Assembly: GCF_009834365.1 (NCBI RefSeq)
Contig: NZ_CP041351.1
Coordinates: 1-31,012 of the forward strand
Direction: 5' to 3'
Source: Komagataeibacter xylinus
GTDB taxonomy: Bacteria; Pseudomonadota; Alphaproteobacteria; Acetobacterales; Acetobacteraceae
Length of the DNA: 31,012 nt
This document shows positions 2 to 31,012 of the stretch, in pieces. The notes under the pieces were generated by a model. That model did not search any database. It was not told the origin of the DNA and was given only the letters and a program-made list of their open reading frames with translations. The position numbers and the translations under genes were made by a program. Within the stretch, counting starts at the first letter, position 1; every line of letters begins with the position of its first letter.

Positions 2-380
2 TACCATTCTGACCGATAACGGCATCCAGTTCGCTGATCAGCCCCGTAACCGCAATACGGCCTGGTCGTGTCCCATGCGCTTTGACATGATCTGCGAAGC
101 TCACGGGATCGAACATCGTCTGACGAAACCCAATCATCCCTGGACGAACGGTCAGGTCGAGCGGATGAACCGGACAATCAAGGAAGCAACCGTCAAACGC
201 TTCCATTACGACAGTCATGAGCAGTTGAGGACACACCTCAACGACTTCATGACAGCCTATAATTTCGGGCGAAGGCTCAAGACCCTCAGTGGCCTTACCC
301 CTTACGAATATGTCTACAAAATATGGACTTCAGAGCCAGAAAGATTCATCATCAATCCAATCCATCAAAACACGGGACTA
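2..380 (+). pseudogene. IS481-family transposase, 3' part of a split copy
   Basis: The reading frame is already open at base 3 and runs through the catalytic core of an IS481-type DDE transposase: the second Asp in LTDNG and the Glu in NGQVERMNRT. It matches the second copy of the element (3937-4948, opposite strand) almost residue for residue. Its 5' part lies at 26695-27328; the two halves join across the window ends if the Tn3-family transposon and one TACCA copy are removed. The normal stop has been lost because an IS630 element sits in the terminal repeat at 381, so the frame runs on to a chance stop at 408-410. The element cannot encode an intact transposase. Confidence 0.88.
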
Positions 381-1548
381 ATACCAATTTGTTTTTGCTA
401 TGACCCATGAGCCCAGTCGCGCAATCCGAGGGACATAATGCGCCATGGCTGCTCGGTGAGCTGGTTCCACGCATGGCAGGCGATATCGACGATATCGTCA
501 TAGGTTCTGAAGATTCTGTTTGAGAGCCATGTATTGCGCATAAACTGCCAGACGTTTTCCACAGGATTGAGTTCGGGAGAGCGTGGCGGGAGCGGCATGA
601 TGGTGATGTTGGGGGGAACCGTCAGTTTCAGACTGGTATGCCATGCTGCCTGATCCAGGATGAGGACGGCGTGACTTTGCGGTGCAACGACCTGGGCGAT
701 TTCCTTGAGATGGAAATTCATCGCATGAATGTTGCACACGGGGAGAACAAGAGCAGCCCCTTTTCCCTGAGCGGGGCAGATTGCCCCGAAAATCCAGGCG
801 GATCGGGTCCTTAGGTCGGCTGTCGCCCGGGGGCGGGTTCCCCGCTTCGCCCAGCGCCGTGTCAGCTTCGTTTTCTGGCCGATCCTTGCTTCATCCGCCC
901 ACCACAGTTCGATATTTTCTCCGGGGTGACAGGCGCTGATTGCGGCAAGGGCATCAGGAAAATCTTTTTAAAAATGTCCTGGGCATCCGGGTTCTGGGCA
1001 TAATGCCGGGGGCGTGGCGTCAGCAGACGAAAATTCTCACTGCGGACAATCCTGCTCAACCAGGAAACAGACAGGCTGACCCCGTGCTCTTCATGAAGCC
1101 AGGCGCACAGATCACGCAATCGCCAGCGCACCACGCCATGAGCCGAAGGAATGGGACCGTCTTCAATCCGCTGCGCCAGAGCCTCCATGACGGAAGGTGT
1201 GATGCGGCGGGCAGCACCCCCACCATGACGATCAATCAGCCCCGCAGGCCCTTGCGCGTTAAAGCGCAAAACCCAGTCCCGAACGATCTGTCGATCCGTT
1301 CCCGCAAGACGGGCCGCCTCGCCACGCGTTGCCCCGTCATAAATCGCGGCAAGCGCCAGAAGGCGCCGCGACTGGGCCGCATGTCTGCTTCGTCGCGCCA
1401 GACCTCGCATGCTCGCTGCATCATAATCTTCTCGGAGTGCGACCGCCTTGCTCATCAGGGATACCTTCCTTCAATGACGGTATCCTGTGAATCACAATTC
1501 AACGCCTATGTGTACCCCCCCCTGAGTCACAGCCAAAACAAATTGGTA
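381..1548 (-). mobile_element. IS630-family insertion sequence inside an IS481 terminal repeat
   Basis: The element is bounded by inverted ends: ATACCAATTTGTTTT at 381 and the complement of ACCAATTTGTTTTGGCT ending at 1548. It is flanked by TA at 379-380 and TA at 1549-1550, the target duplication expected for IS630/Tc1-mariner elements. Removing it restores GGGACTAAACAC, the end of the neighbouring IS481 copy, so it inserted into that copy. It carries one transposase gene in two overlapping frames on the minus strand. The left end has one extra A compared with the right, so the outermost base is uncertain. Confidence 0.85.
398..1455 (-). pseudogene. IS630-family transposase, two frames
   Basis: The first frame (1455 to about 965) begins MSKAVALREDYDAA and holds the N-terminal helix-turn-helix region (GEAARLAGTDRQIVRDWVLRF). 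The second frame (about 968 to 398) gives the DDE core: Asp in WWADEARIG, Asp in LILDQAAWH, and Glu in NPVENVWQF. Together they make about 350 residues, the usual IS630 length. The switch lies at TTTTTAAAAA (965-974). It could be a one-base loss in a homopolymer or a -1 ribosomal frameshift, as some IS630 members have two overlapping frames. The run is not a perfect slippery heptamer, so I do not claim programmed shifting. Confidence 0.8.
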
Positions 1549-1559
1549 TAAACACCTAG
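1549..1559. repeat. Residual IS481 end plus CTAG target
   Basis: TAAACAC (1549-1555) is the outermost end of the IS481 copy, separated from the rest by the IS630 insertion. CTAG (1556-1559) follows, the same tetranucleotide that flanks the other IS481 copy at 3933-3936 and 4949-4952. IS481 of Bordetella is known to target NCTAGN, so this marks the element boundary. Confidence 0.7.
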
Positions 1560-1891
1560 GCGGCCTTGCCCATTTTACTGGTCTGCCGCTTATCGATCTG
1601 CGGGGTGACGTCGCGATTGTCACATCCTACCTCATGATTATTCATCTTGACCATGAAGGTCATCGACGCGAACTGCCAAATCATGGGGCCTCGACGGGAT
1701 ACCGCATTCACCGCGTGGTCGTGAACCGTTGGGAGCTTGAACGGCACAAAGGTCGCTGGATGATTGCCAGGCGCACCCTTCTGCCCGTCGACGGGTCGGC
1801 TGAGCAGCAGGAGCTGCTGCGCAGGGGTTTGAATGGGGTGTATCGCAGATCATTGGGATCTGAAGAGAACGAAGACCCGATCGACGGATAG
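1560..1891 (+). pseudogene. SnoaL/NTF2-like protein, 3' fragment
   Basis: An open frame runs from the IS481 boundary (about 1562) to the stop at 1889-1891. A later ATG at 1634 would give only 85 residues. The sequence GYRIHRVVVNRWELER followed by GRWMIARRTLLPVDG resembles the last beta strands of SnoaL-like/NTF2-fold proteins, where a polar strand is followed by a GxWxIxxR motif. The N-terminal half is missing, cut off by the IS481 insertion at CTAG 1556-1559. No matching 5' half was recognised on the far side of that element (before 26695). The family call is moderate because only the C-terminal strands are present. Confidence 0.55.
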
Positions 1892-1929
1892 TTGATGGTG
1901 TCGCAAAACGCCGCAGGTTGGTCAGTTTC

Positions 1930-3047
1930 TTACAACGATGGCCGACCAGAGACAGCAACGCCGCCCAAAGCCAGAATAATGGCGGCTATGAAGGCAGAAC
2001 TTATATTGCCAGGGAGATATTCCAAAAACGATGACAGGAATTGCCCCATAAAAATGGCAACAGACAGGTAGGCAAGTGCTGAGCCGCGTTCGACAGAGTG
2101 GGTGCGTTCGATCGTCAGGTGATTGACGAGGGGAACTGTCAGTCCGAAACCGGTCCCGAGCATGATTGCAGCGCCAATCATCGGGACTGCCGTCATCATG
2201 GAAGCAAAAAGTGCATGGGCGGCTGCATAGGCCAGAAAGCCCGCCCGCAAAGTGTTTTGCTCCCCGATACGCCGACAGATTTTTGGGAGAAACCACGCTG
2301 CTCCTACAGCGACAAGAGAGACGAATGACAGAAAATACCCTGTTTGCGCCTCGGAGAAGTGCATGCCTTCCAGCCGTCTGGGCAAGGAGATGATCGCTGT
2401 GAAGAACACGGTCATGGAGAGGAGAGCGGCTATATATATTCGCGCCAGTTTTCCCAGAACAGAACCTCGATCTGCTTCTGTTTGGGGTGACGCAACGGGT
2501 TTGACTGGCGGATACGGTACGAACAGTTCGACGAGGACGAGAAAGACCCAACTCATCAGATAGAGCGAAAACGGCCATTGCCATCCCATACTGGCGAGGA
2601 GTCCTCCCAGAGACAGGAAGATGACGCCTCCCAGTTCAATGGCCATGCCCTGGAGTGCGATCATCTTGAGCCGCGCGTGTCCCTCAAAAAAATCGGATAA
2701 AAGCCCTGTGCCCGAAGCCATCACGATCGCTGTTGCTCCCCGAGCAAAAGCCGGTCAGAAAAGATCAATACTGCGTTGCTCAGCCATATACATGCCAGCC
2801 CGAGCGCTCCGTACAGAGCGAGGCCAATACGCAAGGCCTGGCGAGAGCCAAGGCGTGTAATCAGGTGGCCGGCAAAGGGGCCAAAGATCACTACGCCGAG
2901 TGAGGGCAAGGTGACCAGCCAGCTTGCTTCCTGGGAGAGACCGAGAGCCGTCGCGATGCCGGGCAGGCCAGGTACGATAACGCAGCCGACCATGATCGTC
3001 AGACATGCGACACAGAGCAGAGCAAAGACGCCCCTTCGCTTTAACAT
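1930..3047 (-). pseudogene. MFS drug/solute efflux permease, one frameshift
   Basis: The N-terminal part (3047 to about 2740) starts MLKRRGVFALLC after an AGGAA ribosome site and contains the first helices and a GHLITRLGSRQALRIG loop typical of the MFS helix 2-3 signature. The frame then shifts at a run of four C (2738-2741 on the plus strand) and continues as GATAIVMASGTGLLSDFF to the stop at 1930. One extra base in this run would restore about 370 residues with roughly 12 membrane helices, the normal size of a DHA-type antiporter. The gene is divergent from a TetR regulator 73 bases away, the usual arrangement of a repressor-controlled efflux pump. It may be intact in reality if the missing base is a consensus error. 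Confidence 0.8.
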
Positions 3048-3099
3048 GGACATTTCCTGTTTGGGCAATCTAAATACGAGACTAAGGTATCATAATATA

Positions 3100-3114
3100 T
3101 ACGAGACCGTCGTA
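3100..3114. promoter_or_regulatory. Probable TetR operator between efflux gene and regulator
   Basis: TACGA-GACCG-TCGTA is a perfect 5-base inverted repeat just before the tetR start. A second TACGAGAC lies at 3075-3082, giving a direct repeat of the half-site. The position between divergent genes suits a repressor that controls both; the binding itself is inferred. Confidence 0.5.
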
Positions 3115-3119
3115 CCGCA

Positions 3120-3731
3120 ATGACGAAAATGACAACCTCTACTCGCTCTCCGGGGCGCCCGCGCGATAATAAAGTTGGGCCAAGCCTGTTGGCGGCAGCC
3201 CGGCAGCTCGTCCTGCAACACGGATATTGCGGTGTCAGCATCCAGATGATTGCGACAGAGGCTGGTGTTGGCAGGCAGACGCTCTATCGCCGATGGCCGA
3301 GTAAGGCTGAACTCGTTCTGGCCGCGTTCCTGGAAAGCGCTGGTGATGCGGACGTTCTATCGGACGGCCGCGCCGAGAAGCGGTTGCTGCATTTTCTGGT
3401 CAACGTGTTCAGGAACTTGCAGCAGGATGGACCTGCGATCAGGAACCTGATTGCGTCCGCGCAGGACGATCCCGAATTTCTAAAGAGTTTCCGGGCCGGT
3501 TTTGTTGAGCCAAGAGCGGAAATCGTCGCCACCATTTTTCGTGACGGCATTGCAAACGGAGAAATCCTGGAAGATGCCGATGTGGAAATGGCGGTCGCCG
3601 CGTTTCATGGTGCATTTTGGTATCACCTTCTTCTGGGAGGCAAACTTGATGCTGAATTCGCGCAGCGCCTTACGAGGCTCATTATGAAAAGTATTTCAAA
3701 AGAGCCTCGTGAAGAGGAACTATTGAAATAG
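3120..3731 (+). CDS. TetR/AcrR-family transcriptional regulator
   Basis: The protein has 203 residues, normal for the family. The N-terminal helix-turn-helix is clear at about residues 40-62 (MIATEAGVGRQTLYRRWPSK), preceded by the basic SPGRPRDNK segment common in AcrR-like repressors. The rest is the variable ligand-binding domain. It is transcribed away from the MFS permease at 1930-3047 and probably represses both genes through the dyad at 3100-3114. There is no good ribosome site before the ATG at 3120; an in-frame ATG at 3129 is an alternative. The inducing ligand cannot be read from the sequence. Confidence 0.9.
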   Translation: MTKMTTSTRSPGRPRDNKVGPSLLAAARQLVLQHGYCGVSIQMIATEAGVGRQTLYRRWPSKAELVLAAFLESAGDADVLSDGRAEKRLLHFLVNVFRNLQQDGPAIRNLIASAQDDPEFLKSFRAGFVEPRAEIVATIFRDGIANGEILEDADVEMAVAAFHGAFWYHLLLGGKLDAEFAQRLTRLIMKSISKEPREEELLK

Positions 3732-3774
3732 TTCATTCACCATGTGGACAGCGTCCAGATAAAATTATTTGAAT

Positions 3775-3932
3775 TTATTCATCTATGTTTGACCGTATCG
3801 CCTGAATGGGAGCCATCGTGCCGAAGACTCTATCCCGGCGGATGAGCGCGTGGAACAAAGCGGCTGCAATATGAGCGAGGATATCTGCTGAAGTTCTGCG
3901 GAAGTCGATCAGACCGTTTGCTGATTCAGTCT
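3775..3932 (-). pseudogene. Cytochrome b561-like protein, 3' fragment
   Basis: From the CTAG at 3933-3936 the minus strand reads TESANGLIDFRRTSADILAH and on to a stop at 3775. The segment AHIAAALFHALIRRDRVFG resembles the last helix of bacterial cytochrome b561, with the conserved His pair spacing and the HHFxxRDxVLxRM-like end. Everything upstream was removed by the IS481 insertion. I could not convincingly recognise the other half beyond 4952, where only a short frame ending FPLANQSPLN reaches the element. The call is tentative because fewer than 55 residues remain. Confidence 0.5.
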
Positions 3933-3936
3933 CTAG

Positions 3937-4948
3937 GTGTTTAGTCCCGGGATTTAATGGGTTGGATTGATGATGAATCTTTCTGGCTCTGAAGTCCATA
4001 TTTTGCAGACGTATTCGTAAGGTGTGAGGCCGTTCAGGGTCTTGAGCCTTCGCCCGAAATTATAGGCTGCCATGAAATCGTTGAGGTGTGTCCTTAACTG
4101 CTCGTGGCTGTCGTAATGGAAGCGCTTGACGGTTGCTTCCTTGATCGTCCGGTTCATCCGTTCAACCTGACCGTTCGTCCAGGGATGGTTGGGTTTTGTC
4201 AGACGGTGTTCAATCCCGTGGGCTTCGCAGATCATGTCAAAGCGCATGGGACACGACCAGGCCGTATTGCGGTTACGGGGCTGATCAGCGAACTGGATGC
4301 CGTTATCGGTCAGAATGGTATGGATCCGATAAGGAATGATGCTCAGGAGATATTCGAGGAATTCCCAGGCTGTCTTCCGATCGGCTTTCCCGACGAGTTG
4401 TGTGACAGCGAATTTGCTTGTCAGGTCGATAGCAACGAAGAGGTGCAGCTTGCCCTCAGCAGTCTGGACTTCGGCAATATCGATGTGAAAAAAGCCGATG
4501 GGAGTGCGTTTGAAACGCTGTCGTTTGGGCTTGTCTCCCTCGATATCCGGAAGCCGGGAGATCCCGTGACGCTGAAAGCAGCGATGCAGGGCCGAACGTG
4601 TCAGATGAGGAATGCTGGCCTGCAGGGCATAAAGGCAATCATCCAGCGGCAGCAACGTATCCGGCGAAAAGCGACTGCCATGGCTTCTTCGGTTTCTGTC
4701 AGGCTCGTTGAGCGAGGCTCTTTAGGGCCAGTTTTCTGATCTTCGACAGTCTCACGCTTCCGCCATTTTGCAACTGTTTTCGGGTTGATCCCGAACTCCT
4801 TGCTCAACGCCGCGAGCGAAGCCTGCGATCGCTGTATTGCTGCTCATACGGCGTGCGTGGTCGTGGCGCTGCCATGACGTATCTGTCCCATAAGGCTTCC
4901 TTCCACTCTCGTGAAAATAATACCCCATCAAAACACGGGACTAAATAC
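3937..4948 (-). mobile_element. IS481-family insertion sequence, complete ends
   Basis: The ends are inverted: GTGTTTAGTCCCG at 3937 and the complement GTATTTAGTCCCG at 4948. They extend with some mismatches to about 25 bases. CTAG flanks both sides (3933-3936 and 4949-4952), matching the known CTAG preference of IS481. The element is 1012 bp, a typical length, with one minus-strand transposase gene that carries a nonsense codon and a frameshift. A second copy, broken by two later insertions, lies at 26695-27328 plus 2-380 and 1549-1555 in the opposite orientation. Confidence 0.9.
3954..4891 (-). pseudogene. IS481-family transposase with nonsense codon and frameshift
   Basis: From the ATG at 4891 (after GGAAGG) the frame meets TGA at 4846-4844, where an arginine CGA would fit (HAV-stop-AAIQRSQ). 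It continues with the helix-turn-helix SKEFGINPKTVAKWRKR. A second defect near 4655 (after AVAFRR) shifts into the frame LLPLDDCLYALQ, which runs to 3954. The DDE core is intact in that frame: Asp in FFHIDIAEV, Asp in LTDNG, Glu in NGQVERMNRT. Both defects recur at the same positions in the other copy, so they predate the spread of this lineage or reflect an unusual expression mode. Confidence 0.88.
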
Positions 4949-4952
4949 CTAG

Positions 4953-5181
4953 TTGAGCGGGCTTTGGTTCGCCAAGGGAAAGATCGCGCTGTTCTTGACG
5001 GTCGGATTGCTAAATAATCATCCAGAACAGGATGGATGCGAGCGGAAGCTGCAGAAGATTCCGCTCGATGACGGCAACAGATACTTTAACCGCTTATCCC
5101 AATTAGACTATAGTCATATTGGGACAACCCGGAACCACGGTGTATCAAGGGCTGCATGGTGGTTTTTCCGAGAGGGTTCAA
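4953..5181. promoter_or_regulatory. Resolvase upstream region with dyad (possible res/operator)
   Basis: No convincing gene is seen here. The notable element is a 26-base imperfect dyad at 5098-5123: CCCAAT and ATTGGG arms around the perfect palindrome GACTATAGTC (5106-5115). It lies about 60 bases before the resolvase start. Serine resolvases usually bind a res site next to their own gene and repress themselves there, so this is a candidate subsite. That assignment is inference. Confidence 0.45.
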
Positions 5182-5778
5182 ATGGGACAGCGCGCGGTCA
5201 TCTATTGCCGGGTTTCCACGGCCGATCAGTCCTGCGTGCGGCAGAAGGACGAGCTGAAGCGGTTTGCTGAACGCGCGGGCTATGAAGTGTCAGGCATTTT
5301 CATGGAGACAGGTTCTGGCATCCGGGTGGATCGGGCCGAGCGTCGCAAGGTCATGGCACTGGCCCAGGCCCGTGAAATTGACGCCATTCTGGTGACGGAG
5401 CTGTCCCGCTGGGGGCGCTCGACCATTGATCTCATCTCCACGCTTCAGGAACTGGAGAGTTATCGTGTTTCCCTGATCGCCATGACGGGGATGATGTTCG
5501 ACCTGGCGACGCCACATGGGCGGATGCTGGCGACGGTTCTGGCCGGGATTGCGGAGTTTGAGCGGGATTTGATCAGCGAGCGGGTGAAGTCTGGTCTGGC
5601 TGCTGCCAGGGCGCGCGGGAAGGTTCTCGGCCGACAGAAAGGAGAGCGGCCGAAGTCTGACCGTCTGGCTCCGAAGGTTCTGGCGCTGGTGGCGGAAAAG
5701 CGGAGTTATCGGTGGATCGCCCGTGATCTGGGGATCAGCAAGAACACTGTTGCTGCCATTGTGCAGAGAGAAAGATAG
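5182..5778 (+). CDS. Serine recombinase (plasmid resolvase)
   Basis: This 198-residue protein of the resolvase/invertase family has the catalytic serine in YCRVSTADQ (Ser12). It also has the active-site arginine region LSRWGRSTIDL, the core ending GIAEFERDLISERVKSGLAAA (E-helix) and a C-terminal helix-turn-helix (SYRWIARDLGISKNTVAAI). The start at 5182 is preferred because GAGAGG precedes it and the catalytic domain then begins normally. Its likely job is resolving plasmid multimers. Before the 5838-10158 element inserted, it lay roughly 200 bases upstream of parA, so it belongs to the stability backbone rather than to a transposon. It differs clearly from the two Tn-type resolvases elsewhere in the window. 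Confidence 0.9.
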   Translation: MGQRAVIYCRVSTADQSCVRQKDELKRFAERAGYEVSGIFMETGSGIRVDRAERRKVMALAQAREIDAILVTELSRWGRSTIDLISTLQELESYRVSLIAMTGMMFDLATPHGRMLATVLAGIAEFERDLISERVKSGLAAARARGKVLGRQKGERPKSDRLAPKVLALVAEKRSYRWIARDLGISKNTVAAIVQRER

Positions 5779-5780: not shown

Positions 5781-5820
5781 TGTCATCATGTTTTTATGTT
5801 AACATAAAAACATGATGACA
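5781..5820. repeat. Perfect 40-bp palindrome downstream of resolvase
   Basis: The 20 bases TGTCATCATGTTTTTATGTT are followed directly by their exact reverse complement, with centre TTAA. A long perfect palindrome with no loop suits a protein-binding site or a cruciform better than a terminator. The right arm resembles the sequence just before parA: both contain TTAACA, then AAACATG, then TGRCA (10264-10285). A ParA/partner binding site is possible. Confidence 0.85.
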
Positions 5821-5837
5821 TTTTATAGGTGCTATCA

Positions 5838-5875
5838 GGGGAGCGGTGAGAGGATGTTCGAAAACGTACGGTAAG
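5838..5875 (+). repeat. Left 38-bp terminal inverted repeat
   Basis: It starts GGGGAGCGGTGAGAGGATG and ends CGAAAACGTACGGTAAG. It differs from the right repeat at only two positions (A/T in the middle, G/C near the inner end). The inner CGAAAAC and TAAG are shared with classical Tn3 ends. Confidence 0.9.
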
Positions 5876-5954
5876 CGATACCGTATGTAAGACGTTGATT
5901 TCGATACGGGTTACGTGACCGAAATTCAGCTATTTTCGGGGCATCTCGACGCAG

Positions 5955-5978
5955 TCACATAAACGCTCGTATAAGTGA
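5955..5978. promoter_or_regulatory. Possible res subsite / tnpR operator
   Basis: TCACATAA and ATAAGTGA form an imperfect dyad immediately before the tnpR start, in the 100-base gap between the terminal repeat and the gene. Tn3-family res sites have this layout. The rest of the gap (5876-5954) has further partial repeats of CGATAC but no gene. Confidence 0.4.
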
Positions 5979-5983
5979 CAACT

Positions 5984-6616
5984 ATGATTGGATATGCCCG
6001 GGTCTCGAAGGCCGACGGGTCGCAGGTACTGGATCTGCAACATGACGCTCTGGCAAAAGCCGGGGTCAGGCCCGAGCATATCTATGAAGATACCGCATCT
6101 GGACGGCGCGATGATCGCCCTGGTCTGAGGGCATGCCTCAAAGCCTTACGATCTGGCGATACCCTTGTGATTTGGAAGCTGGACCGCCTCGGACGTGATC
6201 TGCGTCATCTCGTTAACCTGGTCGGGGACCTGACCAAACGCTGTGTCGGGTTGAAGGTGCTGGCGGGCGAAGGAGCCTCGATCGATACCACCACAGCAAA
6301 TGGTCGCTTGATCTTCGCAATCTTTGCCGGACTGGCGGAGTTCGAGCGGGAATTGATCGTTGAACGGAAACGCGCAGGTCTGGCTTCTGCACGTGCCCGA
6401 GGACGACAGGGTGGCCGTCCCTTCAAGATGACCTTAGCCAAACTTCATCTGGCTCAGGCCGCCATGAGTGATCCTGAAACCCAGGTTGGAGATCTGTGTT
6501 CTGAACTGGGGATCAGCCGCCAGACGTTGTATCGACATGTCACTCCCGAGGGTAAAATCAGGCCGGATGGGGAAAAACTTCTGGCGCAGAAAACACGAAA
6601 AATCTCTCAAAACTGA
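5984..6616 (+). CDS. tnpR: Tn3-family resolvase (TnpR type)
   Basis: The 210-residue serine recombinase starts MIGYARVSKADGSQ, with catalytic Ser8. It continues with VIWKLDRLGRDLRHL and FAGLAEFERELIVERKRAGL, then a C-terminal helix-turn-helix (DLCSELGISRQTLYRHV). A GTG nine bases upstream is an alternative start. It is closely related to the resolvase at 27357-27971 of the complete Tn3-family transposon, sharing most motifs and the SKADGSQ-LDLQHDAL segment. With no tnpA in this element, it would act only in cointegrate resolution after transposition in trans. Its stop is three bases from the convergent end of the 6620-7771 gene. Confidence 0.92.
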   Translation: MIGYARVSKADGSQVLDLQHDALAKAGVRPEHIYEDTASGRRDDRPGLRACLKALRSGDTLVIWKLDRLGRDLRHLVNLVGDLTKRCVGLKVLAGEGASIDTTTANGRLIFAIFAGLAEFERELIVERKRAGLASARARGRQGGRPFKMTLAKLHLAQAAMSDPETQVGDLCSELGISRQTLYRHVTPEGKIRPDGEKLLAQKTRKISQN

Positions 6617-6619
6617 GAT

Positions 6620-7771
6620 TTATGGCTTATCTCTGGTCTGCGTAACGTGAGGATCAATCGACACCAGCAGAAACGGTTGGTGACTGCGGGCTTGCCCCTG
6701 ATGGAACTGCGGAAGACGATCCAGTTGTGCGATAGGCAACCAGAGACGACCGTCCGGAGCAAGACAAGGTGCATCCGCCCAATGCAGACGTGGGTCCGAG
6801 ATCAGTCTCGTGATCTTCCCGGAAAAGTCTCTCCGATAAACGCCATTATCCCTCAGGTTGGTGAAATAAAGATTTCCTGCGGTATCCATGGCGCTGCCCC
6901 CGATGGGAGGTAAATCAGACCAAGGCTGAACAGCAGCAGACAAATCGGTTGACGACACATTAGAATCATCAAGCAAAGCTGTCGGGACGCGGGACCACGG
7001 CCCTTCAAGCGGCCCGAAATACAGCCATTTCCCGTCTGGACTGACTTCCAGCGGATCGACATTCACCAGTAACGGCTGATGAGGATGACTCTCCACGACG
7101 TGTCCATCCATGACAATCGGTCGATCTGTCCGTGCGCGTGTGGAAGCGTCCTTGTCCAGGACGCGGCGTGCCTGGCCGGTTTTGATATCAAGAACAATCA
7201 GCGCCGCCTTGCCCGCATCCGTTAGATAGGCATGCGTCCCGTTGAAACGGATATCGTCGATATAGCTTCCTGCCTGCGCGATCTCTGGACCCAGAGGATA
7301 TATCCGCAGCACATGACCTGTTGCCGGATCAATGCGGACCAGTTTGGCTCCGGCAGATACGGGGCTGCCTCCAAAAGAGGGAGTTCCAGTATCAACAACC
7401 CAGAGCATTCCATCAGGAGCAACATGGAGGGCATTGACGCTGACAAACCGATGCGTCGCATCCTGCCCGGGTTTCCAGCCATTCCAGTCAGCGTCCGGAA
7501 ACGGCTCTATTTCTTTGCTCTTCGTCAGAAGACCCACGGCAGGCCCGGAAAATCCGGTCCAGCGAGGGCCTGCGACAAACACATGACCACCAGCAAGCGC
7601 CACGGCGTTCCAGTCCATTGACTTAGTGGTCGCTTCGATCCTGATGGTCTGGGCATGCACAGGTTCGAGGTGCGCGCACGCAGCAACGAGCCCCATGAAA
7701 GCGGCGATTGCGCTTTTGTGCAGAGTTCTCTTTGAACAATCCTGCCGTCGTATCTGTTTCATGAACTCCAT
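6620..7771 (-). CDS. MRJP/yellow-family (dopachrome-tautomerase-related) exported protein
   Basis: The protein has 383 residues. The N-terminus is basic, then hydrophobic, with possible cleavage after VHA (residue 40). LVAAC at residues 28-32 also fits a lipobox, so it may be a lipoprotein. The mature part looks like a six-bladed propeller of the major royal jelly protein/yellow family (SMP-30-like): VSVNALHVAPDGMLWVVDTG, IDDIRFNGTHAYLTDAG, LIVLDIKTGQARRVLD, LEVSPDGKWLYFGPLEG and AMDTAGNLYFTNLRDNGVY. The start at 7771 lies four bases after the cupin stop, so it is the last gene of the operon 9638 to 6620. Bacterial members have no firmly assigned substrate; a lactone, sugar acid or quinone-like ligand is conceivable. 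Confidence 0.82.
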   Translation of the reverse strand: MEFMKQIRRQDCSKRTLHKSAIAAFMGLVAACAHLEPVHAQTIRIEATTKSMDWNAVALAGGHVFVAGPRWTGFSGPAVGLLTKSKEIEPFPDADWNGWKPGQDATHRFVSVNALHVAPDGMLWVVDTGTPSFGGSPVSAGAKLVRIDPATGHVLRIYPLGPEIAQAGSYIDDIRFNGTHAYLTDAGKAALIVLDIKTGQARRVLDKDASTRARTDRPIVMDGHVVESHPHQPLLVNVDPLEVSPDGKWLYFGPLEGPWSRVPTALLDDSNVSSTDLSAAVQPWSDLPPIGGSAMDTAGNLYFTNLRDNGVYRRDFSGKITRLISDPRLHWADAPCLAPDGRLWLPIAQLDRLPQFHQGQARSHQPFLLVSIDPHVTQTRDKP

Positions 7772-7775
7772 GATG

Positions 7776-8210
7776 TCAGATTCTCGCAATAAAACCGGAC
7801 GGCGTGCCGGCGGCAGGATCGACGAATACCACGTCGTCCGGTGCACGACGCGGTGTATCAATGGCGAGAAAAACGACAGGATGGCTCAGAATGCGGGGCA
7901 CGGCATGCACAGCCCGACGGGGGAACACCAGAAGATGGCCGGGTGCAAACGGGGCTTCGTCAGCCGGATCATCTATCCAGAATGTGCCTGTCCCGGAGAG
8001 GACATGGAGTACTTCATCGCACTGGGTATGATAATGCGGCGGCACATCCCGATAAATCCGGAAGACCCGTATACTGGCTTCAGGCTTGTCGGTCAGGTAG
8101 GTGTCCAGCAGCATTGTGTCCGCCGTTTCCGGGAACGCTGCGGCAATTTCATTGAGGTTGAACCGTCCACCCGTCTGGTTGAGGGTCATCAGATGTTCTT
8201 CGTCATTCAT
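7776..8210 (-). CDS. Cupin-domain protein
   Basis: The 144-residue single-domain cupin has the first motif PHYHTQCDEVLHVLSG at residues 58-73 (metal ligands His59, His61 and Glu66) and a second motif around PGHLLVFPRRAVHAVP (His102). The metal site looks complete, so an enzyme (oxygenase, isomerase or epimerase) is possible rather than a degenerate binding protein. It overlaps the upstream SnoaL-like gene by ATGA and is followed after four bases by the MRJP gene, so translation is likely coupled. Its substrate cannot be told from sequence. Confidence 0.85.
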   Translation of the reverse strand: MNDEEHLMTLNQTGGRFNLNEIAAAFPETADTMLLDTYLTDKPEASIRVFRIYRDVPPHYHTQCDEVLHVLSGTGTFWIDDPADEAPFAPGHLLVFPRRAVHAVPRILSHPVVFLAIDTPRRAPDDVVFVDPAAGTPSGFIARI

Positions 8211-8593
8211 AACACCTGTCCTCCACTTTCAAGAAGTTTCTGTATGGCGGCAGTATCGGCGACCTGATGCAGTGCCGTGATCTCTCCGTTTTCCACGGTC
8301 CAGAGATGCGCAAAGGCAATATCACCTGACTGCCCACGCGTTGTTCGCACGCGGTAGACACCTGTCGTCGCGACACTCTTTCCTTCGGCGGTGACGCTGT
8401 GTGGAAGTGTCACGTAATCCGAAAAATGTTTCATGATCCTGGTGAAAAACTGCTCTTCCACAGCTTTTCGTCCCACATACTGCCCACCTTCAGGGAAGGT
8501 CGGAAGAACACTCCAGACAATTCCCGCAGAAAGGAGTGTCGTATCACCGGTCCTGTACCAGGTTTCCACGAGCGTTTTAGCTGTTTCAGTCAT
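8207..8593 (-). CDS. SnoaL-like / NTF2-fold protein
   Basis: The 128-residue protein starts MTETAKTLVETWYRTGDTTLL. The N-terminal helix, the central GRKAVEEQFFTRIMKHFSDY and the C-terminal strand pair FAHLWTVENGEITALHQVAD fit the SnoaL-like ketosteroid-isomerase fold. Members act as isomerases, cyclases or dehydratases, or bind small hydrophobic molecules. It overlaps the upstream oxidoreductase by 8 bases and the downstream cupin by 4 bases, placing it firmly in the operon. This gene is absent from the second copy of the hxlR-oxidoreductase module at 24141-25648. Confidence 0.8.
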   Translation of the reverse strand: MTETAKTLVETWYRTGDTTLLSAGIVWSVLPTFPEGGQYVGRKAVEEQFFTRIMKHFSDYVTLPHSVTAEGKSVATTGVYRVRTTRGQSGDIAFAHLWTVENGEITALHQVADTAAIQKLLESGGQVL

Positions 8594-9638
8594 GATCTTC
8601 TCCGTTCAGGCCCAGTGTGCAGGCAGGAAAACCTTCAAGCACGATCTTACCTTTAGCTTGACCGCTCTCGATCAGGGCGTGAGCCTCTCGCAGATTGGCG
8701 GCGGTGATCGCGCCAAGATTTTTGCCGAGGGTCGTACGGAGACGACCTTCGTCTATAAGGCGCGACACGTCGTTCAGGAGTTTCCCTTGTGCGCTGATAT
8801 CTGCCGTTCCGAACAGTGAGCGGGTGAACATCAGTTCCCAGTGCAGGGACAGGCTTTTGCGCTTGAGGGGTACAGCATTGAGTTCAGCCGGATCATCAAT
8901 CAGGCCGAAATGTCCCTGAGGGGCAAGGAGTTCGACGATCTCTGCCAGGTGGCGATCCGTCTGCGTCGTCGAAAAGACAAAACCGGGAGCCCCCGTAGGA
9001 AGGCCAGCAACCTGTTCCGCCAGAGGCTTACTGTGATCGATCACGTAATCTGCCCCGAGAGATGTGACCCAGTCCTGCGTTTCGGGGCGCGAAGCCGTAG
9101 CAATGACCGTGATATTAGTCAGAACCTTGGCCAGTTGGATTGCTATTGAACTGACTCCACCTGCGCCTCCAATGATCAATATGGACGGCGTCGTTCCCGG
9201 GACAGACCGACGAATGTCCAGGCGATCGAAAAGCATTTCCCAGGCCGTGATTGCGGTCAGTGGTAAGGCTGCGGCTTCGGCCCAGTTCAGAGAGCGGGGT
9301 TTGTGACCGACAATCCGTTCATCGACCAGATGAAACTCGGCGTTGGTCCCCGGGCGATTGATCGCGCCCGCATAAAAGACCTCATCGCCGACAGAGAAAC
9401 CCGTCACGTCCGGTCCGGTTCCAACAACAATGCCTGCGGCATCCCAGCCCAGAACGCGCCACTGACCCGCCTCCGGTGTTGCGCTGCTGCGGACTTTCGT
9501 ATCAACCGGATTGACCGACACCGCCCTGATTTCCACCAGAATATCCCGACCCGTGGGGACAGGTTTTGGAAGATCAATGTCCTGAAGAGAGGCCGGATTT
9601 TCGATGGGAAGCGGCGTCTGATAACCGATGGCCCGCAT
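8586..9638 (-). CDS. Zinc-type alcohol dehydrogenase / quinone oxidoreductase family (copy 1)
   Basis: This is a 350-residue MDR-superfamily protein. The N-terminal GroES-like domain includes EIRAVSVNPVDTKVR, WDAAGIVVGTG and DEVFYAGAINRPGTNAEFHL. It is followed by a Rossmann domain with IIGGAGGVSSIAIQLAK and the NADPH-binding ATASRPETQDWV. No structural or catalytic zinc cysteines are seen, so it is more like quinone oxidoreductases than true alcohol dehydrogenases. The start follows AGGAG. It is the first gene of the operon and divergent from hxlR. A near-identical paralogue lies at 24629-25648; copy 1 has a longer C-terminus (about 11 extra residues after EGFPA) that runs into the SnoaL gene. 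Reduction of quinones or enals with NADPH is the expected reaction. Confidence 0.9.
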   Translation of the reverse strand: MRAIGYQTPLPIENPASLQDIDLPKPVPTGRDILVEIRAVSVNPVDTKVRSSATPEAGQWRVLGWDAAGIVVGTGPDVTGFSVGDEVFYAGAINRPGTNAEFHLVDERIVGHKPRSLNWAEAAALPLTAITAWEMLFDRLDIRRSVPGTTPSILIIGGAGGVSSIAIQLAKVLTNITVIATASRPETQDWVTSLGADYVIDHSKPLAEQVAGLPTGAPGFVFSTTQTDRHLAEIVELLAPQGHFGLIDDPAELNAVPLKRKSLSLHWELMFTRSLFGTADISAQGKLLNDVSRLIDEGRLRTTLGKNLGAITAANLREAHALIESGQAKGKIVLEGFPACTLGLNGEDHD

Positions 9639-9718
9639 GATATCTGCTCCTGTGTTGAGTCAGGAGAAGCGTGAGCGCTATGATGCTTTCAGACAAGAAC
9701 GCACTTTTAACGCCCATA

Positions 9719-9734
9719 GTATCGGAAATGATAC
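9719..9734. promoter_or_regulatory. Probable HxlR operator
   Basis: GTATC-GGAAAT-GATAC is a perfect inverted repeat in the 100-base gap between the divergent oxidoreductase and hxlR genes, ending four bases before the hxlR ATG. The second module keeps GTATC but has GACAC in place of the other arm. HxlR-type repressors bind such dyads; the role here is inferred. Confidence 0.5.
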
Positions 9735-9738
9735 CGTT

Positions 9739-10125
9739 ATGCCCCGCATCCGCCATAAGTCCCTTGATTGCAGCCCCGGCTGCGCTGTTGAAGCAACGCT
9801 TCAGCTCATCGACGGGAAATGGAAAGGGGTGATCCTCTATCATCTGCTTCAAGGGACATTACGTTTCAACGCCATCCGCAAACGTCTGCCCAACATCACC
9901 CAGAGAATGCTGACGACCCAGCTTCGCGAGCTGGAGCGTGACGGGTTCGTGTTACGGACGGTTTATCCCGAAGTCCCGCCAAAGGTGGAATACAGCCTGA
10001 CCCCACGCGGACTGACACTCGAACCTGTCATTCTGGCTCTCAAGGCCTGGGGCGACGAGCACACGACGTTCGGGCATGTTCCTGATATCTGCGCAGATAT
10101 GAAAGGTTCTCCAACAAACTCTTAG
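9739..10125 (+). CDS. HxlR-family transcriptional regulator (copy 1)
   Basis: The 128-residue winged-helix protein starts MPRIRHKSLDCSPGCAVEAT and continues WKGVILYHLLQGTLRFNAIR, NITQRMLTTQLRELERDGFV and a wing (VPPKVEYSLTPRG), the standard HxlR layout. Cys11 and Cys15 sit where redox- or quinone-sensing HxlR proteins (QorR/YodB type) carry their reactive cysteine. It is divergent from a quinone-oxidoreductase-like gene, as in the yodB and qorR loci, which suggests quinone or electrophile sensing. An upstream in-frame start at 9628 is rejected because it overlaps the divergent gene. No ribosome site precedes 9739, so the mRNA may be leaderless. The stop codon lies inside the right terminal repeat. 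Confidence 0.88.
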   Translation: MPRIRHKSLDCSPGCAVEATLQLIDGKWKGVILYHLLQGTLRFNAIRKRLPNITQRMLTTQLRELERDGFVLRTVYPEVPPKVEYSLTPRGLTLEPVILALKAWGDEHTTFGHVPDICADMKGSPTNS

Positions 10126-10158
10126 CGTACGTTTTCGAACAACCTCTCACCGCTCCCC
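10121..10158 (-). repeat. Right 38-bp terminal inverted repeat
   Basis: It begins CTTAGCGTACG and ends in CCGCTCCCC, complementary to 5838-5875 except at two positions. TATCA follows at 10159-10163. The hxlR stop codon (10123-10125) is part of the repeat. Confidence 0.9.
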
Positions 10159-10163
10159 TATCA

Positions 10164-10284
10164 GCACCGGTCTGAGGCATACAAAATGTTTGGTTCGATT
10201 AAATAGTCGGTTTTTTGAGGAAGACATTGAGTTATCAAAATAACATGGTAATGGGTTAATGTGTTAACACGGAAACATGGTGGC
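10164..10284 (+). promoter_or_regulatory. parA upstream region, possible partition site
   Basis: This 120-base AT-rich stretch has no gene. It contains ATGTGTTAACACGG (10259-10272, centre GTTAAC) followed by AAACATGGTGGCATG, which matches one arm of the 40-bp palindrome at 5781-5820 with few changes. GTGTTAA/TTAACAC words also recur in the origin (12490-12550). A shared binding site for ParA or its partner is a reasonable guess. Confidence 0.45.
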
Positions 10285-10944
10285 ATGAAAACAATCGCGA
10301 TCATTAGTCAGAAGGGAGGCGCTGGGAAGACGACGCTTGCCCTACACTTGGCTACTAGTGCCAGTGCCGCTGGATACGTTTCTCTGATCCTCGATACCGA
10401 TCCGCAGGCGACTGCAAGTTCATGGAAAGCGTGGCGGGGGGATGTCGAGCCTGATGTGGTGGATTGTGCGGCTCATGCCCTGTTATCAAAAAAGCTGGAG
10501 CAAGCGTCCGAACTGGGTGCAGAACTATCGATAATAGATACCCCTCCACATGCCGATATTATGGCGCGTGAGGCGTGTCGTGTCGCTGATTTCTTGTTAA
10601 TTCCATGCAGACCACGTGCTTTCGATATGGACGCTGTCAGAACAACGGCAGAACTTGTGCGAGCCAGTGGTAAGCCTGCCTTCGTAATCTTTACTGCGGG
10701 CCCTCCTCGTGCGCCCCAAGTTTATAAGGAGGCGGCTGAGGTCGTGGCGCAGTTTGGTATCCCTGTTGCTCCTGTTGTTTTGCCAGAGCGTGCAGTTTTT
10801 CATCATAGCGTTGGTTCCGGTCGTACTGCGCAGGAAACGGAGCCTGAAAGCAAGGCTGCTGCTGATATAGCACTGTTGTGGAATTGGGTGTGTGATCAAG
10901 TTAACATGCCATCACACAAACAAGATGACACAAAAACGCGTTAG
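10285..10944 (+). CDS. parA: ParA-family partition ATPase
   Basis: The 219-residue protein begins MKTIAIISQKGGAGKTT, with the deviant Walker A at residues 10-17. It has the second lysine/Asp region LILDTDPQATASSW and Walker B-like LSIIDTPPHAD. It lacks an N-terminal DNA-binding extension, so it is the short type Ib ParA. The start at 10285 is preferred over the ATG/GTG further upstream because the Walker fold begins at once. The ribbon-helix-helix gene follows 27 bases later, forming a two-gene partition operon that would segregate the plasmid along the nucleoid. Its promoter region is separated from the backbone resolvase by the 4.3-kb insertion. Confidence 0.93.
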   Translation: MKTIAIISQKGGAGKTTLALHLATSASAAGYVSLILDTDPQATASSWKAWRGDVEPDVVDCAAHALLSKKLEQASELGAELSIIDTPPHADIMAREACRVADFLLIPCRPRAFDMDAVRTTAELVRASGKPAFVIFTAGPPRAPQVYKEAAEVVAQFGIPVAPVVLPERAVFHHSVGSGRTAQETEPESKAAADIALLWNWVCDQVNMPSHKQDDTKTR

Positions 10945-23925: not shown

Positions 23926-24117
23926 CCATAACCCTTCATCATGCTTGCCAATGAGGTGCCCGCCGCGTTCTGTGCGATCTGGAACTGGCGCAAATCTTCG
24001 GCTGTTACCTATGGGGGAGCGGCCCAGAAACGTGGCGAAACGGCCGACATCGCGAAGGTAATTGCACTGCGCCTCCCGGGAGAACCGCCGCACCGCCATG
24101 TCATCAAGGTTGGCGGG
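23926..24117 (-). pseudogene. Tyrosine recombinase (XerC-like) N-terminal fragment
   Basis: LPANLDDMAVRRFSREAQCN followed by YLRDVGRFATFLGRSP is the SAM-like core-binding domain of a phage-integrase-type recombinase. After a small frame-changing lesion near 24008 it continues EDLRQFQIAQNAAGTS. The catalytic domain is absent. On one side it abuts the truncated Tn3-type repeat at 24121, on the other the TnpA piece, so the three fragments were joined by successive rearrangements. Confidence 0.65.
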
Positions 24118-24120
24118 AAG

Positions 24121-24145
24121 AGGTTGTTCGAAAACGTACGCTAAG
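24121..24145 (+). repeat. Truncated Tn3-type terminal repeat (inner 25 bp)
   Basis: AGGTTGTTCGAAAACGTACG followed by CTAAG matches the inner 25 bases of the 10121-10158 repeat. The outer 13 bases are replaced by recombinase-fragment sequence. No partner end or target duplication is found for this copy, so the second module is no longer mobile through these ends. Confidence 0.85.
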
Positions 24146-24527
24146 AGTTTGTTGGAGAGCCTTTCATATCTGCGCAGATATCAGGAACATGTCCGAACTC
24201 TGTGTGCTCGTCGCCCCAGGCCTTGAGAGCCTTGATGACGGGCTTGAGGGTTCGCCCGCGCGGGGTGAGGCTGTATTCCACCTTTGGCGGGACTTCCGGG
24301 TAAACCGTCCGTAAGACGAACCCGTCGCGCTCCAGTTCGCGAAGCTGGGTCGTCAGCATTCTCTGGGTGATATTGGGCAGGCGTTTGCGGATGGCGTTGA
24401 AGCGCAGGGTCCCCTGAAGCAGGTGATAGAGGATCACGCCTTTCCATTTTCCGTCGATGAACTGAAGCGTTGCCTCAACAGCGCAGCCGGGACTGCAATC
24501 AAGCGACTTATGGCGGATGCGGGTCAT
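24141..24527 (-). CDS. HxlR-family transcriptional regulator (copy 2)
   Basis: The 128-residue protein is nearly identical to copy 1 (9739-10125); the start reads MTRIRHKSLDCSPGC, and changes near the C-terminus include KALKAWGDEHTEF for LALKAWGDEHTTF. Cys11 and Cys15 are kept. It is divergent from the second oxidoreductase gene. The operator-like dyad in its promoter has one altered arm (GTATC-N6-GACAC), so binding or cross-regulation between copies may differ. The stop again lies in the terminal-repeat remnant. Confidence 0.88.
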   Translation of the reverse strand: MTRIRHKSLDCSPGCAVEATLQFIDGKWKGVILYHLLQGTLRFNAIRKRLPNITQRMLTTQLRELERDGFVLRTVYPEVPPKVEYSLTPRGRTLKPVIKALKAWGDEHTEFGHVPDICADMKGSPTNS

Positions 24528-24628
24528 AACGGTATCATTTCCGACACTATGGGCGTTAAAAGTGCGTTCTTGTCTGAAAACATCATAGTGTTCACTCTTC
24601 TCCTCATTCAACAGAGGAGCAGACAATC
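24528..24628. promoter_or_regulatory. Divergent promoter region, hxlR copy 2 / oxidoreductase copy 2
   Basis: This 100-base gap corresponds to 9639-9738. The dyad GTATC-ATTTCC-GACAC is at 24532-24547, imperfect compared with copy 1. GAGGAG precedes the oxidoreductase ATG. Confidence 0.5.
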
Positions 24629-25648
24629 ATGCGGGCCATCGGTTATCAGACACCGCTTCCCATCGAAAATCTGGCATCCCTTCAGGACATTGATCTGCCA
24701 AAACCTGTCCCTACAGGACGGGATCTTCTGGTGGAAATCAGGGCCGTATCGGTCAATCCGGTTGATACCAAAGTCCGTCGCAGTGCGACACCGGAGGCGG
24801 GTCAGTGGCGTGTTCTGGGCTGGGATGCCGCAGGCGTTGTTGTGGGAACCGGACCGGACGTCACGGATTTTTCTGTCGGCGACGAGGTCTTTTATGCGGG
24901 GGCGATCAATCGCCCTGGGACCAACGCCGAGTTTCATCTGGTTGATGAACGGATTGTTGGTCGCAAACCCTGCTCCCTGAACTGGGCCGAAGCCGCAGCC
25001 TTACCACTGACAGCAATTACGGCCTGGGAGATGCTTTTCGATCGTCTGGATATTAGCCGATCTGTCCCAGGAGTGACCCCGTCCATTCTGATCATCGGGG
25101 GCGCTGGCGGAGTCAGTTCCATAGCGATCCAGCTAGCCAAGGTCCTGACCGACATTACAGTCATTGCCACAGCTTCGCGCCCCGAAACGCAGGACTGGGT
25201 CATATCTCTCGGGGCAGATTACGTGATCGATCACAGCAAGCCTCTGGCCGCACAGGTTGCCACTCTTCCCACGGGTGCTCCCGGCTTTGTTTTTTCCACG
25301 ACGCAGACGGATCAACATCTGGCAGAGATCGTCGAACTTCTTGCCCCGCAGGGACATTTCGGCCTGATTGATGATCCGGCTGATTTCAATGCTGTCCCTC
25401 TCAAAAAGAAAAGCCTGTCCCTGCACTGGGAGCTGATGTTCACCCGTTCACTGTTCGGAACGGCAGACATCGGCGCGCAGGGGACGCTCCTGAACAATGT
25501 GTCGCGGCTCGTAGATGAAGGTCGTCTTCGCACGACGCTCGGCAAAAATCTCGGGCTCATCACCGCCGCCAATCTGCGGAAGGCTCATGCCCTGATCGAG
25601 AGCGGTCAGGCTAAAGGCAAGATTGTGCTCGAAGGTTTCCCTGCCTGA
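24629..25648 (+). CDS. Zinc-type alcohol dehydrogenase / quinone oxidoreductase family (copy 2)
   Basis: The 339-residue MDR protein is almost identical to 8586-9638 up to EGFPA, where it stops. Domain layout is the same: GroES-like N-terminus and Rossmann motif IIGGAGGVSSIAIQLAK. Substitutions are scattered (for example RRSATPEAG for RSSATPEAG, and DFNAVPLKKK for ELNAVPLKRK), showing that the copies have diverged for some time. The SnoaL, cupin and MRJP genes of copy 1 are absent; an SDR gene follows instead, 79 bases downstream. It probably shares the NADPH-dependent quinone or enal reduction expected for copy 1. Confidence 0.9.
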   Translation: MRAIGYQTPLPIENLASLQDIDLPKPVPTGRDLLVEIRAVSVNPVDTKVRRSATPEAGQWRVLGWDAAGVVVGTGPDVTDFSVGDEVFYAGAINRPGTNAEFHLVDERIVGRKPCSLNWAEAAALPLTAITAWEMLFDRLDISRSVPGVTPSILIIGGAGGVSSIAIQLAKVLTDITVIATASRPETQDWVISLGADYVIDHSKPLAAQVATLPTGAPGFVFSTTQTDQHLAEIVELLAPQGHFGLIDDPADFNAVPLKKKSLSLHWELMFTRSLFGTADIGAQGTLLNNVSRLVDEGRLRTTLGKNLGLITAANLRKAHALIESGQAKGKIVLEGFPA

Positions 25649-25727: not shown

Positions 25728-26486
25728 ATGAAACTGACAGATAATACCATATTGATTACTGGAGGTGGTTCCGGGATCGGTCGCGCCCTTGCCGAAGCAT
25801 TTCATCAGAAGGGCAACAAGGTAATTATTGCCGGGCGTCGCCGTTCAAGGCTTAATGAAGTTACAGCAGCCAATCCTGGCATGGAGGCCATTGAACTAAA
25901 TCTCGAAATTCCAGCTGATATCCAGAACGTCGCGGAACAAATTCAACGAGATTACCCATCGTTGAACGTACTTATCAATAATGCCGGAATCATGTTGCCA
26001 GATACGGCGGACGGGCAAATAGATGACAATCTTCTGATATCAACGTTCACTACCAATTTTGCTGCTCCAATTCGACTGACTTCTGCGCTCATGCCACATC
26101 TTAAGGCACAGTCTCAATCAACCATCATCTACAATACTTCCGGACTGGCCTTTATTCCGCTCGCAATGACAGCAGTTTATTCTGCATCTAAAGCAGCTCT
26201 CCATTCTTACGTAATGTCGCAGCGTTTCCTGCTTAAGGATACGAACATCGACGTCATCGAAATCGCACCGCCATGGGTTCGGACCGAACTGATGAACAGT
26301 CAAGAAGCAGAAGCCGCTGTCCCTCTAAATAAATTCATTTCCGATACTATGGCTCTCTTGGCCACAGAGGAGAACGAAATCATCGTTGATGAAGCGAAAA
26401 TATTTCGTGATTCTTCCGGCCCACAAGAATATGGATTCGTCGAAAGTTTTAATCAGAAAATGCGGGCCCTTTTCCAAAATAGATAG
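25728..26486 (+). CDS. SDR-family NAD(P)-dependent oxidoreductase (DltE-like)
   Basis: The 252-residue short-chain dehydrogenase has the cofactor motif TGGGSGIGR (11-19), NNAG at 84-87 and the catalytic triad Ser138 (NTSGLAF), Tyr151 and Lys155 (YSASK). The arginine after the second beta strand (AGRRRSRL) favours NADP(H). It resembles the DltE-type SDRs that lie next to quinone- or HxlR-controlled genes. A CGGAG site precedes the ATG. Codon use is clearly more AT-rich than in the preceding oxidoreductase gene, which suggests separate origin. Confidence 0.9.
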   Translation: MKLTDNTILITGGGSGIGRALAEAFHQKGNKVIIAGRRRSRLNEVTAANPGMEAIELNLEIPADIQNVAEQIQRDYPSLNVLINNAGIMLPDTADGQIDDNLLISTFTTNFAAPIRLTSALMPHLKAQSQSTIIYNTSGLAFIPLAMTAVYSASKAALHSYVMSQRFLLKDTNIDVIEIAPPWVRTELMNSQEAEAAVPLNKFISDTMALLATEENEIIVDEAKIFRDSSGPQEYGFVESFNQKMRALFQNR

Positions 26487-26694: not shown

Positions 26695-27328
26695 GTGTTT
26701 AGTCCCGGGGTTTGATGGTGTGGTATTTGTACGAGAGTGGAAGGAAGCATTATGGGGACAGATACGTCATGGCAGCGCCACGACCACGCACGCCGTATGA
26801 GCAGCAATACAGCGATCGCAGGCTTCGCTCGCGGCGTTGAGCAAGGAGTTCGGGATCAACCCGAAAACAGTTGCAAAATGGCGGAAGCGTGAGACTGTCG
26901 AAGATCAGAAAACTGGCCCTAAAGAGCCTCGCTCAACGAGCCTGACAGAAACCGAAGAAGCCATGGCAGTCGCTTTTCGCCGGATACGTTGCTGCCGCTG
27001 GATGATTGCCTTTATGCCCTGCAGGCCAGCATTCCTCATCTGACACGTTCGGCCCTGCATCGCTGCTTTCAGCGTCACGGGATCTCCCGGCTTCCGGATA
27101 TCGAGGGAGACAAGCCCAAACGACAGCGTTTCAAACGCACTCCCATCGGCTTTTTTCACATCGATATTGCCGAAGTCCAGACTGCTGAGGGCAAGCTGCA
27201 CCTCTTCGTTGCTATCGACCTGACAAGCAAATTCGCTGTCACACAACTCGTCGGGAAAGCCGATCGGAAGACAGCCTGGGAATTCCTCGAATATCTCCTG
27301 AGCATCATTCCTTATCGGATCCATACCA
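26695..27328 (+). pseudogene. IS481-family element, 5' part of the split copy
   Basis: It starts with GTGTTTAGTCCCG, the IS481 end. The transposase start region has one extra G after ATG (ATGGGG instead of ATGGGA), then the same TGA codon and the same frameshift after AVAFRR as the copy at 3937-4948. It runs to YRIHT at 27328, where the Tn3-family transposon begins; the rest is at 2-380. The outer flank is CGAG, not the CTAG seen at the far end (1556-1559), so the flanks may have been exchanged by recombination or mutated. Confidence 0.88.
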
Positions 27329-27366
27329 GGGGTCGTTTGCGGGAGGGGGCGAAATCCTACGCTAAG
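27329..27366 (+). repeat. Left terminal inverted repeat of the Tn3-family transposon
   Basis: 38 bases, GGGG at the outside and CTAAG at the inside. The tnpR stop codon is within it. It is identical in complement to the right end. Confidence 0.92.
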
Positions 27367-30985: not shown

Positions 30986-31012
30986 GATTTCGCCCCCTCC
31001 CGCAAACGACCC
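30976..31012 (-). repeat. Right terminal inverted repeat (37 of 38 bases in window)
   Basis: It starts CTTAGCGTAGG and runs to the last base. The final C of the repeat is base 1 of the window. The tnpA stop codon lies within it. Confidence 0.92.

Follow-up and report, generated by a model that had tools for sequence, protein, structure and literature searches.

How can a transposon lose its transposase gene and keep its ends, its resolution system and its cargo? The question is raised by a Tn3-family unit of 4,321 bp (positions 5838-10158) on a plasmid of Komagataeibacter xylinus; the window analysed here is the whole 31,012-bp contig C4 (NZ_CP041351.1) of this four-contig genome. The original prediction, made from the sequence alone, described the unit as a transposase-less Tn3-type element that carries a metabolic operon and had moved as a whole. 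Our best explanation, to which we assign a probability of roughly 70%, is that the unit is a hybrid: a resolvase joined the arm of a miniature element of the TIME type to the tnpR-cargo arm of a complete transposon at res site I, with loss of tnpA, and the product was then transposed into this plasmid by TnpA acting in trans.

The unit is bounded by 38-bp inverted repeats (IRs) on the left (5838..5875, + strand) and on the right (10121..10158, - strand), both located by repeat comparison and pattern search. The two IRs are identical at 36 of 38 positions and differ at two, and the pentanucleotide TATCA lies directly outside both of them (5833..5837 and 10159..10163). The ends are of the GGGG...TAAG type and are also borne by tnpA-carrying elements, as befits ends of the Tn3 family; inside the unit neither the open reading frames (ORFs) nor a domain search yielded a tnpA. 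The IR pattern, allowing up to 3 mismatches, is matched twice in the window and not once in 100 shuffles; a third, decayed IR-like end with 5 mismatches lies at 24108-24145. On the A. pomorum plasmid pApBDGP5C the same backbone (96-97% identity) continues through an empty site that holds a single TATCA. TATCA is therefore a true duplication of the 5-bp length seen in the Tn3 family and not part of a longer pre-existing repeat, which was one of the outcomes that had been named as fatal to the original prediction. The corresponding site of N. hansenii has diverged, with TATCA not preserved. The absence of the IRs from the shuffles, the TATCA flanks and the empty site in pApBDGP5C together establish that the unit is real and arrived by transposition, in good agreement with what had been proposed. 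Its ends are rare at the level of species representatives, since a 28-base end pattern (1 mismatch) was matched in two of 249 family genomes, the source genome being one of them; a 19-base end pattern matched 29 stretches in a search of genome contigs.

Relatives with a transposase do exist. Megablast with the unit matched 22 plasmid records, and in four of them a single locus accounts for at least 80% of its length. In K. nataicola pKNA08 and pKNA09 a full tnpA stands ahead of the same tnpR and cargo, giving the order IR-tnpA-tnpR-cargo-IR, and the TnpA of the parent transposon (P0001) carries the Tn3 DDE domain (PF01526). The pKNA09 copy is 7,303 bp long, is flanked by the target site duplication (TSD) TCGTA, has ends near-identical to those of the unit and is 90.5% identical to it in DNA sequence across element positions 117-4321. 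A second tnpA-bearing copy with the same cargo and likewise near-identical ends, of 7,313 bp and with the TSD TTATG, is found in G. cerinus NBRC 3267; the flanks of the pKNA08 copy do not match. The tnpA-bearing transposon with the same ends that the original prediction had proposed to look for is thus at hand, and the ends are not confined to this locus. These complete 7.3-kb transposons (pKNA09, G. cerinus) share with the unit tnpR, the cargo and its order, and the right IR; unlike the unit, they have tnpA, a left arm of their own and GA at the centre of site I.

The other search proposed at the time, for the same unit at further sites with 5-bp duplications, succeeded in part: the hybrid itself was found only here, and a tnpA-less relative of 3,794 bp with the TSD GTACC is present in G. 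oxydans H24, Gluconobacter sp. Dm-62 and G. kondonii, where it is probably one old insertion. This shorter form resembles the unit in its right end, its cargo genes, the loss of most of tnpA and its matching duplications, and differs from it in that an internal deletion also took the start of tnpR and that the left arm belongs to the transposon itself. Matching TSDs also flank more distant transposons, whose ends are 2-4 mismatches off and whose TnpA is about 73% identical: GAACC in Acetobacter aceti, TCCTC in Methylorubrum populi and GTTGT in Sphingobium baderi. Of the 14 IR-bounded elements longer than 1 kb that were compared, among them the unit itself and a weak Kozakia pair, nine had identical 5-bp flanks, with the GTACC form accounting for three of these. 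A related transposon with the same end type and unmatched flanks lies on p150 of Sphingomonas AAP5 (L057:10001-16330), with hydrolase, carboxymuconolactone decarboxylase and LysR genes as cargo.

Judged by the alignments, tnpA does not appear to have been simply deleted from the unit: its left arm follows a miniature element as far as the putative crossover point in res. This arm (5838..5967, + strand), made up of the IR and the left part of res, is 97% identical (126/130) to a 231-bp TIME of G. kondonii (L047:3962-4192), and the match drops to 39/102 beyond position 129. Over unit positions 39-130 the identity is 89/92 to this TIME versus 44/92 to pKNA09; directly to the right of position 130 the unit is identical to pKNA09 at 93 of 101 positions. 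The best single TIME/transposon breakpoint falls after element position 130 or 131, which coincides with the centre (5966-5967) of a 26-bp dyad, GTCACATAAACG-CT-CGTATAAGTGAC (5954..5979, + strand). Dyads related to it directly precede tnpR in 12 related transposons and lie mid-element in the miniature elements. Since strand exchange in the Tn3 family takes place at the centre of res site I (as stated in the available part of PMC13367494), we read the dyad as site I, a function that we infer. The gene next to it, tnpR (5975..6616, + strand), encodes a serine resolvase (PF00239) that is 97.6% identical to TnpR of pKNA08/pKNA09, and the unit thus has the resolvase and, ahead of it, a putative res site of a Tn3-family transposon.

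Miniature elements 231-232 bp long, in which both ends were recognised, occur in A. pasteurianus 386B, G. sphaericus, K. xylinus, G. kondonii, A. vaccinii and the same-genus genome G367, and decayed ones in A. oryzoeni and the same-genus genome G060; the same-genus genome G354 repeats the K. xylinus TIME letter for letter. They fit the description of TIMEs in the accessible part of PMC4133298. Used as a query, the G. kondonii TIME matched 12 of 397 family genomes at E 1e-5, mostly at or near the ends only. Of the six two-ended TIMEs, only that of G. kondonii has a matching TSD (perfect AAGAA duplications); the other five have none. K. xylinus and G367 have a TIME locus in common, with left flanks 97.6% identical over 1,286 bp and TIME left halves identical at 130 of 131 positions; the right halves agree at only 66 of 101 positions and the right flanks differ, the right half of the G367 TIME being instead 91/101 identical to that of G. 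kondonii. To all appearances this locus is a natural exchange at the same point as the switch in our unit. In its two host-genus copies (L071:1495-1726 and L030:4670-4901), right half and right flank are swapped at the centre of site I or no more than a few bases from it. In pairwise comparisons of seven TIMEs, identity in the left half does not correlate with identity in the right half (r -0.27); between quarters of one half it does, at 0.60 and 0.66, values reached by 40 and 8, respectively, of 5,040 label permutations.

The homology between the arms of TIMEs and unit does not directly show which descends from which, so one could ask whether the TIMEs instead derive from unit-like elements through loss of tnpR and cargo. 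We regard this as very improbable. The TIMEs have right halves of their own: outside the IR, the right half of L071 is 89% identical to that of G. kondonii, 81% to G. sphaericus and 72% to A. oryzoeni, and these four right halves are only 42-49% identical to the corresponding stretch of the window. Furthermore, the hybrid was seen once, while several genera contain TIMEs and complete transposons.

How would such a hybrid have formed? In the proposed scheme, the right part of the unit (tnpR, operon, regulator and right end) would come from a 7.3-kb Tn3-family transposon with the layout IR-tnpA-res-tnpR-cargo-IR, and the left arm (IR and left part of res) from a 231-bp TIME. The serine resolvase would recombine the res sites of the two at site I, such that the TIME arm replaces the arm holding tnpA, and the hybrid would retain two ends, res and tnpR. 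A TnpA of the parent type, supplied in trans, would then move it as a unit into the plasmid, giving TATCA. We place transposition after the exchange because a plain res exchange swaps the flanks too, yet TATCA matches on the two sides. An identical junction with an identical, matching TATCA would also result if a TIME and a complete transposon lying near each other in direct orientation had moved as one composite, with TnpR later deleting the segment between their res sites in place; the hybrid itself would then never have moved. Composites bounded by TIMEs are known (TIME-COMP; described in the available portions of PMC4133298 and PMC13367494). However, there is no composite of TIME and transposon among the loci examined, and this order of events demands one extra, unobserved intermediate, and for these reasons we consider it unlikely and prefer exchange followed by transposition.

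Several points weigh against a resolvase-made hybrid. The placement of the switch is less sharp than the best breakpoint implies: breakpoints at 116-118 are only 2 mismatches worse, and the sharp placement depends on three positions that distinguish TIMEs from transposons (122, 129 and 130). Without G367 the TIME correlations weaken, to r -0.12 between halves and 0.27 and 0.50 within them. The TIME-by-transposon hybrid was seen once, and its reciprocal product (tnpA arm plus TIME right arm) was not seen in 397 family genomes or among plasmids, of which 10 records gave a match. The resolvase activity is a predicted one, and of the subsites of res only site I was assigned. Most importantly, the central dinucleotide of site I is CT in 8/8 TIMEs and in the window, and GA in 12/12 transposons, counting the elements in which site I was found (5 further scanned loci gave no site). 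Serine resolvases disfavour unequal overlaps, and a parent transposon with CT, or a rare mismatched exchange, must therefore be assumed.

This difference, which argues against easy exchange by a resolvase, is also an argument for a chance or homologous join, in which illegitimate or RecA recombination would have united the TIME arm and the tnpR arm; joining in register is conceivable, the res regions being related in layout. The switch nevertheless lies in register at the very centre of the dyad, with 6 bp shared in register around it. The TIME and transposon parents share at most 6 bp in register near the switch (positions 85-145), which leaves homologous recombination little to work with. 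L071, with a further exchange at this point, also speaks against coincidence, and we judge a join made without resolvase to be improbable, somewhat more so than the composite.

Exchange by resolvase offers a precise route by which tnpA can be lost and cargo, ends and resolution system kept, namely a single exchange at res with a miniature element. It leads one to expect junctions of this kind at res site I, and gives a reason why five of the six two-ended TIMEs lack matching target duplications. On a broader scale, the TIMEs of acetic acid bacteria could be a circulating stock of spare transposon arms, with resolvases swapping arms via res sites among TIMEs and with full transposons; cargo transposons would repeatedly be made helper-dependent, and their flanks rearranged, by site-specific recombination and not by slow deletion. 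We offer this only tentatively, at somewhat less than even odds, because the population signal leans on a single pair: the discordance between halves draws largely on K. xylinus and G367, as the weaker correlations without G367 indicate.

Which transposase moved the unit? The original prediction held that the helper is another element, located elsewhere in the cell. This is supported insofar as tnpA-bearing kin with the same ends exist, the TnpA of pKNA09 and G. cerinus being the likely helper, and not as regards a helper in the same cell: when the source genome, which comprises 4 contigs and is rated 100% complete, was searched with the pKNA TnpA, no cognate TnpA came up and the sole match was the interrupted tnpA of the plasmid's other Tn3-type element, at no more than 43% identity. 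Of the same-genus genomes, 11 of 19 (source included) matched the pKNA TnpA, with 43% for the best near-full-length match and up to 67% for shorter fragments; K. nataicola DS12 does hold the cognate TnpA. No other TIME copy was found in the source genome either. With neither a cognate TnpA nor a free TIME detected there, the event probably took place elsewhere, and the unit now seems to be stranded in its present host.

Domain matches agree with the gene list given in the original prediction (resolvase, HxlR, quinone-oxidoreductase-like, SnoaL-like, cupin and MRJP proteins). Downstream of tnpR, the operon lies on the - strand and reads away from the HxlR gene. It encodes a zinc-type alcohol dehydrogenase (ADH) family/quinone-oxidoreductase-like enzyme (8586..9638; PF08240, PF00107, PF13602; solved relative 4dvj), which a match to TIGR02817 above the cut-off identifies as a medium-chain oxidoreductase; a SnoaL-like protein (8207..8593; PF12680, SnoaL_2); a cupin protein (7776..8210; PF07883); and an MRJP/yellow-type propeller protein (6620..7861; PF03022; best solved relative 2qe8), which likely starts inside its ORF and, judged by eye, may be exported. 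The divergent HxlR-type regulator (ORF 9628..10125, + strand; likely start 9739; PF01638) has the HxlR fold, its closest solved relative being B. subtilis YybR (4a5m/4a5n; E 8.9e-36 for 4a5m). We take YybR to be the regulator named HypR, in which the cysteines at residues 14 (Cys14) and 49 presumably have roles. Cys52 of the unit's regulator aligns with residue 14 of 4a5m, corresponding to the N-terminal cysteine of the HypR/YodB type, and the position of residue 49, counted on an ungapped alignment, is occupied by Leu87. Between the divergent genes lies a candidate operator, the dyad GTATC-N6-GATAC (9719..9734); two relatives outside the transposon (L003, L092) share its perfect form with the window, and in the remaining transposon copies examined it reads GTGTC-N6-GATAC. 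From the fold match, and from the redox-sensing role of regulators of the HypR/YodB type, we read the cargo as most likely an operon that responds to redox conditions or electrophiles and is controlled by the HxlR regulator. A K. oboediens plasmid carries HxlR-ADH-SnoaL-cupin, with no MRJP among the annotated neighbours and with the nearest IR-like end at least 16 mismatches away in sequence match (12 kb searched); since this module lacks such ends, the cargo looks like a local module taken up by the transposon.

The plasmid contains further traces of transposition. A second Tn3-type element (27329-31012 and position 1) spans the joined contig ends with TACCA on both sides, from which it follows that the contig is circular. 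As had been noted, its ends, which we take to resemble those of Tn5393, differ from those of the unit; its description as complete does not hold, its tnpA frame being interrupted (ORFs of 225 and 652 aa, with the intervening part matching in another frame). The decayed IR described above begins a truncated second copy of the unit's right end (24108..25648; 89-91% inverted match), with HxlR on the - strand and ADH on the + strand, after which a short-chain dehydrogenase/reductase gene (25728-26486) stands in place of the remaining operon. The unit itself is flanked by a serine recombinase gene (5119-5778) on one side and by parA (10261-10944) on the other. It adjoins a perfect 20+20 bp palindrome (5781-5820), the insertion being within GGTGC-TATCA-GCACC (5828-5837 region), and its target may have been the res region of the plasmid itself. 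A 574-bp stretch from a transposase region resembling that of an insertion sequence is present in two identical, inverted copies (4316-4889 and 26755-27328), separated by 21.9 kb. In K. nataicola, pKNA08 (L011) combines a replicon region 87% identical to that of the window with the complete tnpA-bearing transposon carrying the same cargo.

How does the unit compare with known systems? Among the matches listed in the open-licence literature, no title concerns TIMEs of acetic acid bacteria or a cargo-bearing exchange between TIME and transposon, and the available part of PMC4686929 names miniature inverted-repeat transposable elements (MITEs) only in a general list. The view that such units are seldom noticed was nevertheless partly overstated, as a tnpA-less Tn3-type unit with a resolvase, the 1,186-bp TIME-RES, is already in print (Szuplewska 2014, PMC4133298, available in part). 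According to that part, TIME-RES is, like our unit, a tnpA-less hybrid with Tn3-type ends, one TIME-type end region, a tnpR-res module and a 5-bp duplication; unlike it, TIME-RES holds only tnpR/res and no metabolic cargo, and no res site I exchange is proposed there for its origin. Our unit likewise has one TIME-type end region (126/130, in comparison with an acetic-acid-bacterial TIME) and the tnpR-res module of an autonomous Tn3-family transposon, as the identity of its TnpR to those of pKNA08/pKNA09 attests. It is not a TIME-COMP, which has a TIME copy at each end: its right end is that of the transposon and has no TIME half. TIME244 (Gomi and Yano 2026, PMC13367494) resembles the TIME part of the unit in its short length, its lack of tnpA, its IRs and its putative res site; TnpR-mediated rearrangement has been proposed for it. 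It differs in its Tn21-subgroup ends, its occurrence in Enterobacteriaceae and its two-TIME composites, and hybrids of TIME and transposon are absent from the accessible sections of that paper. Resolvase shuffling of Tn3-family transposons (Kholodii 2001, as cited in the available part of PMC9501444) likewise recombines the res sites of different elements; as cited there, the subject is the action of the CinH-RS2 system on other res sites, and no TIME partner is mentioned in that part. The unit is thus apparently a TIME-RES-like hybrid with metabolic cargo, formed at res, and a variant of both TIME-RES and resolvase shuffling.

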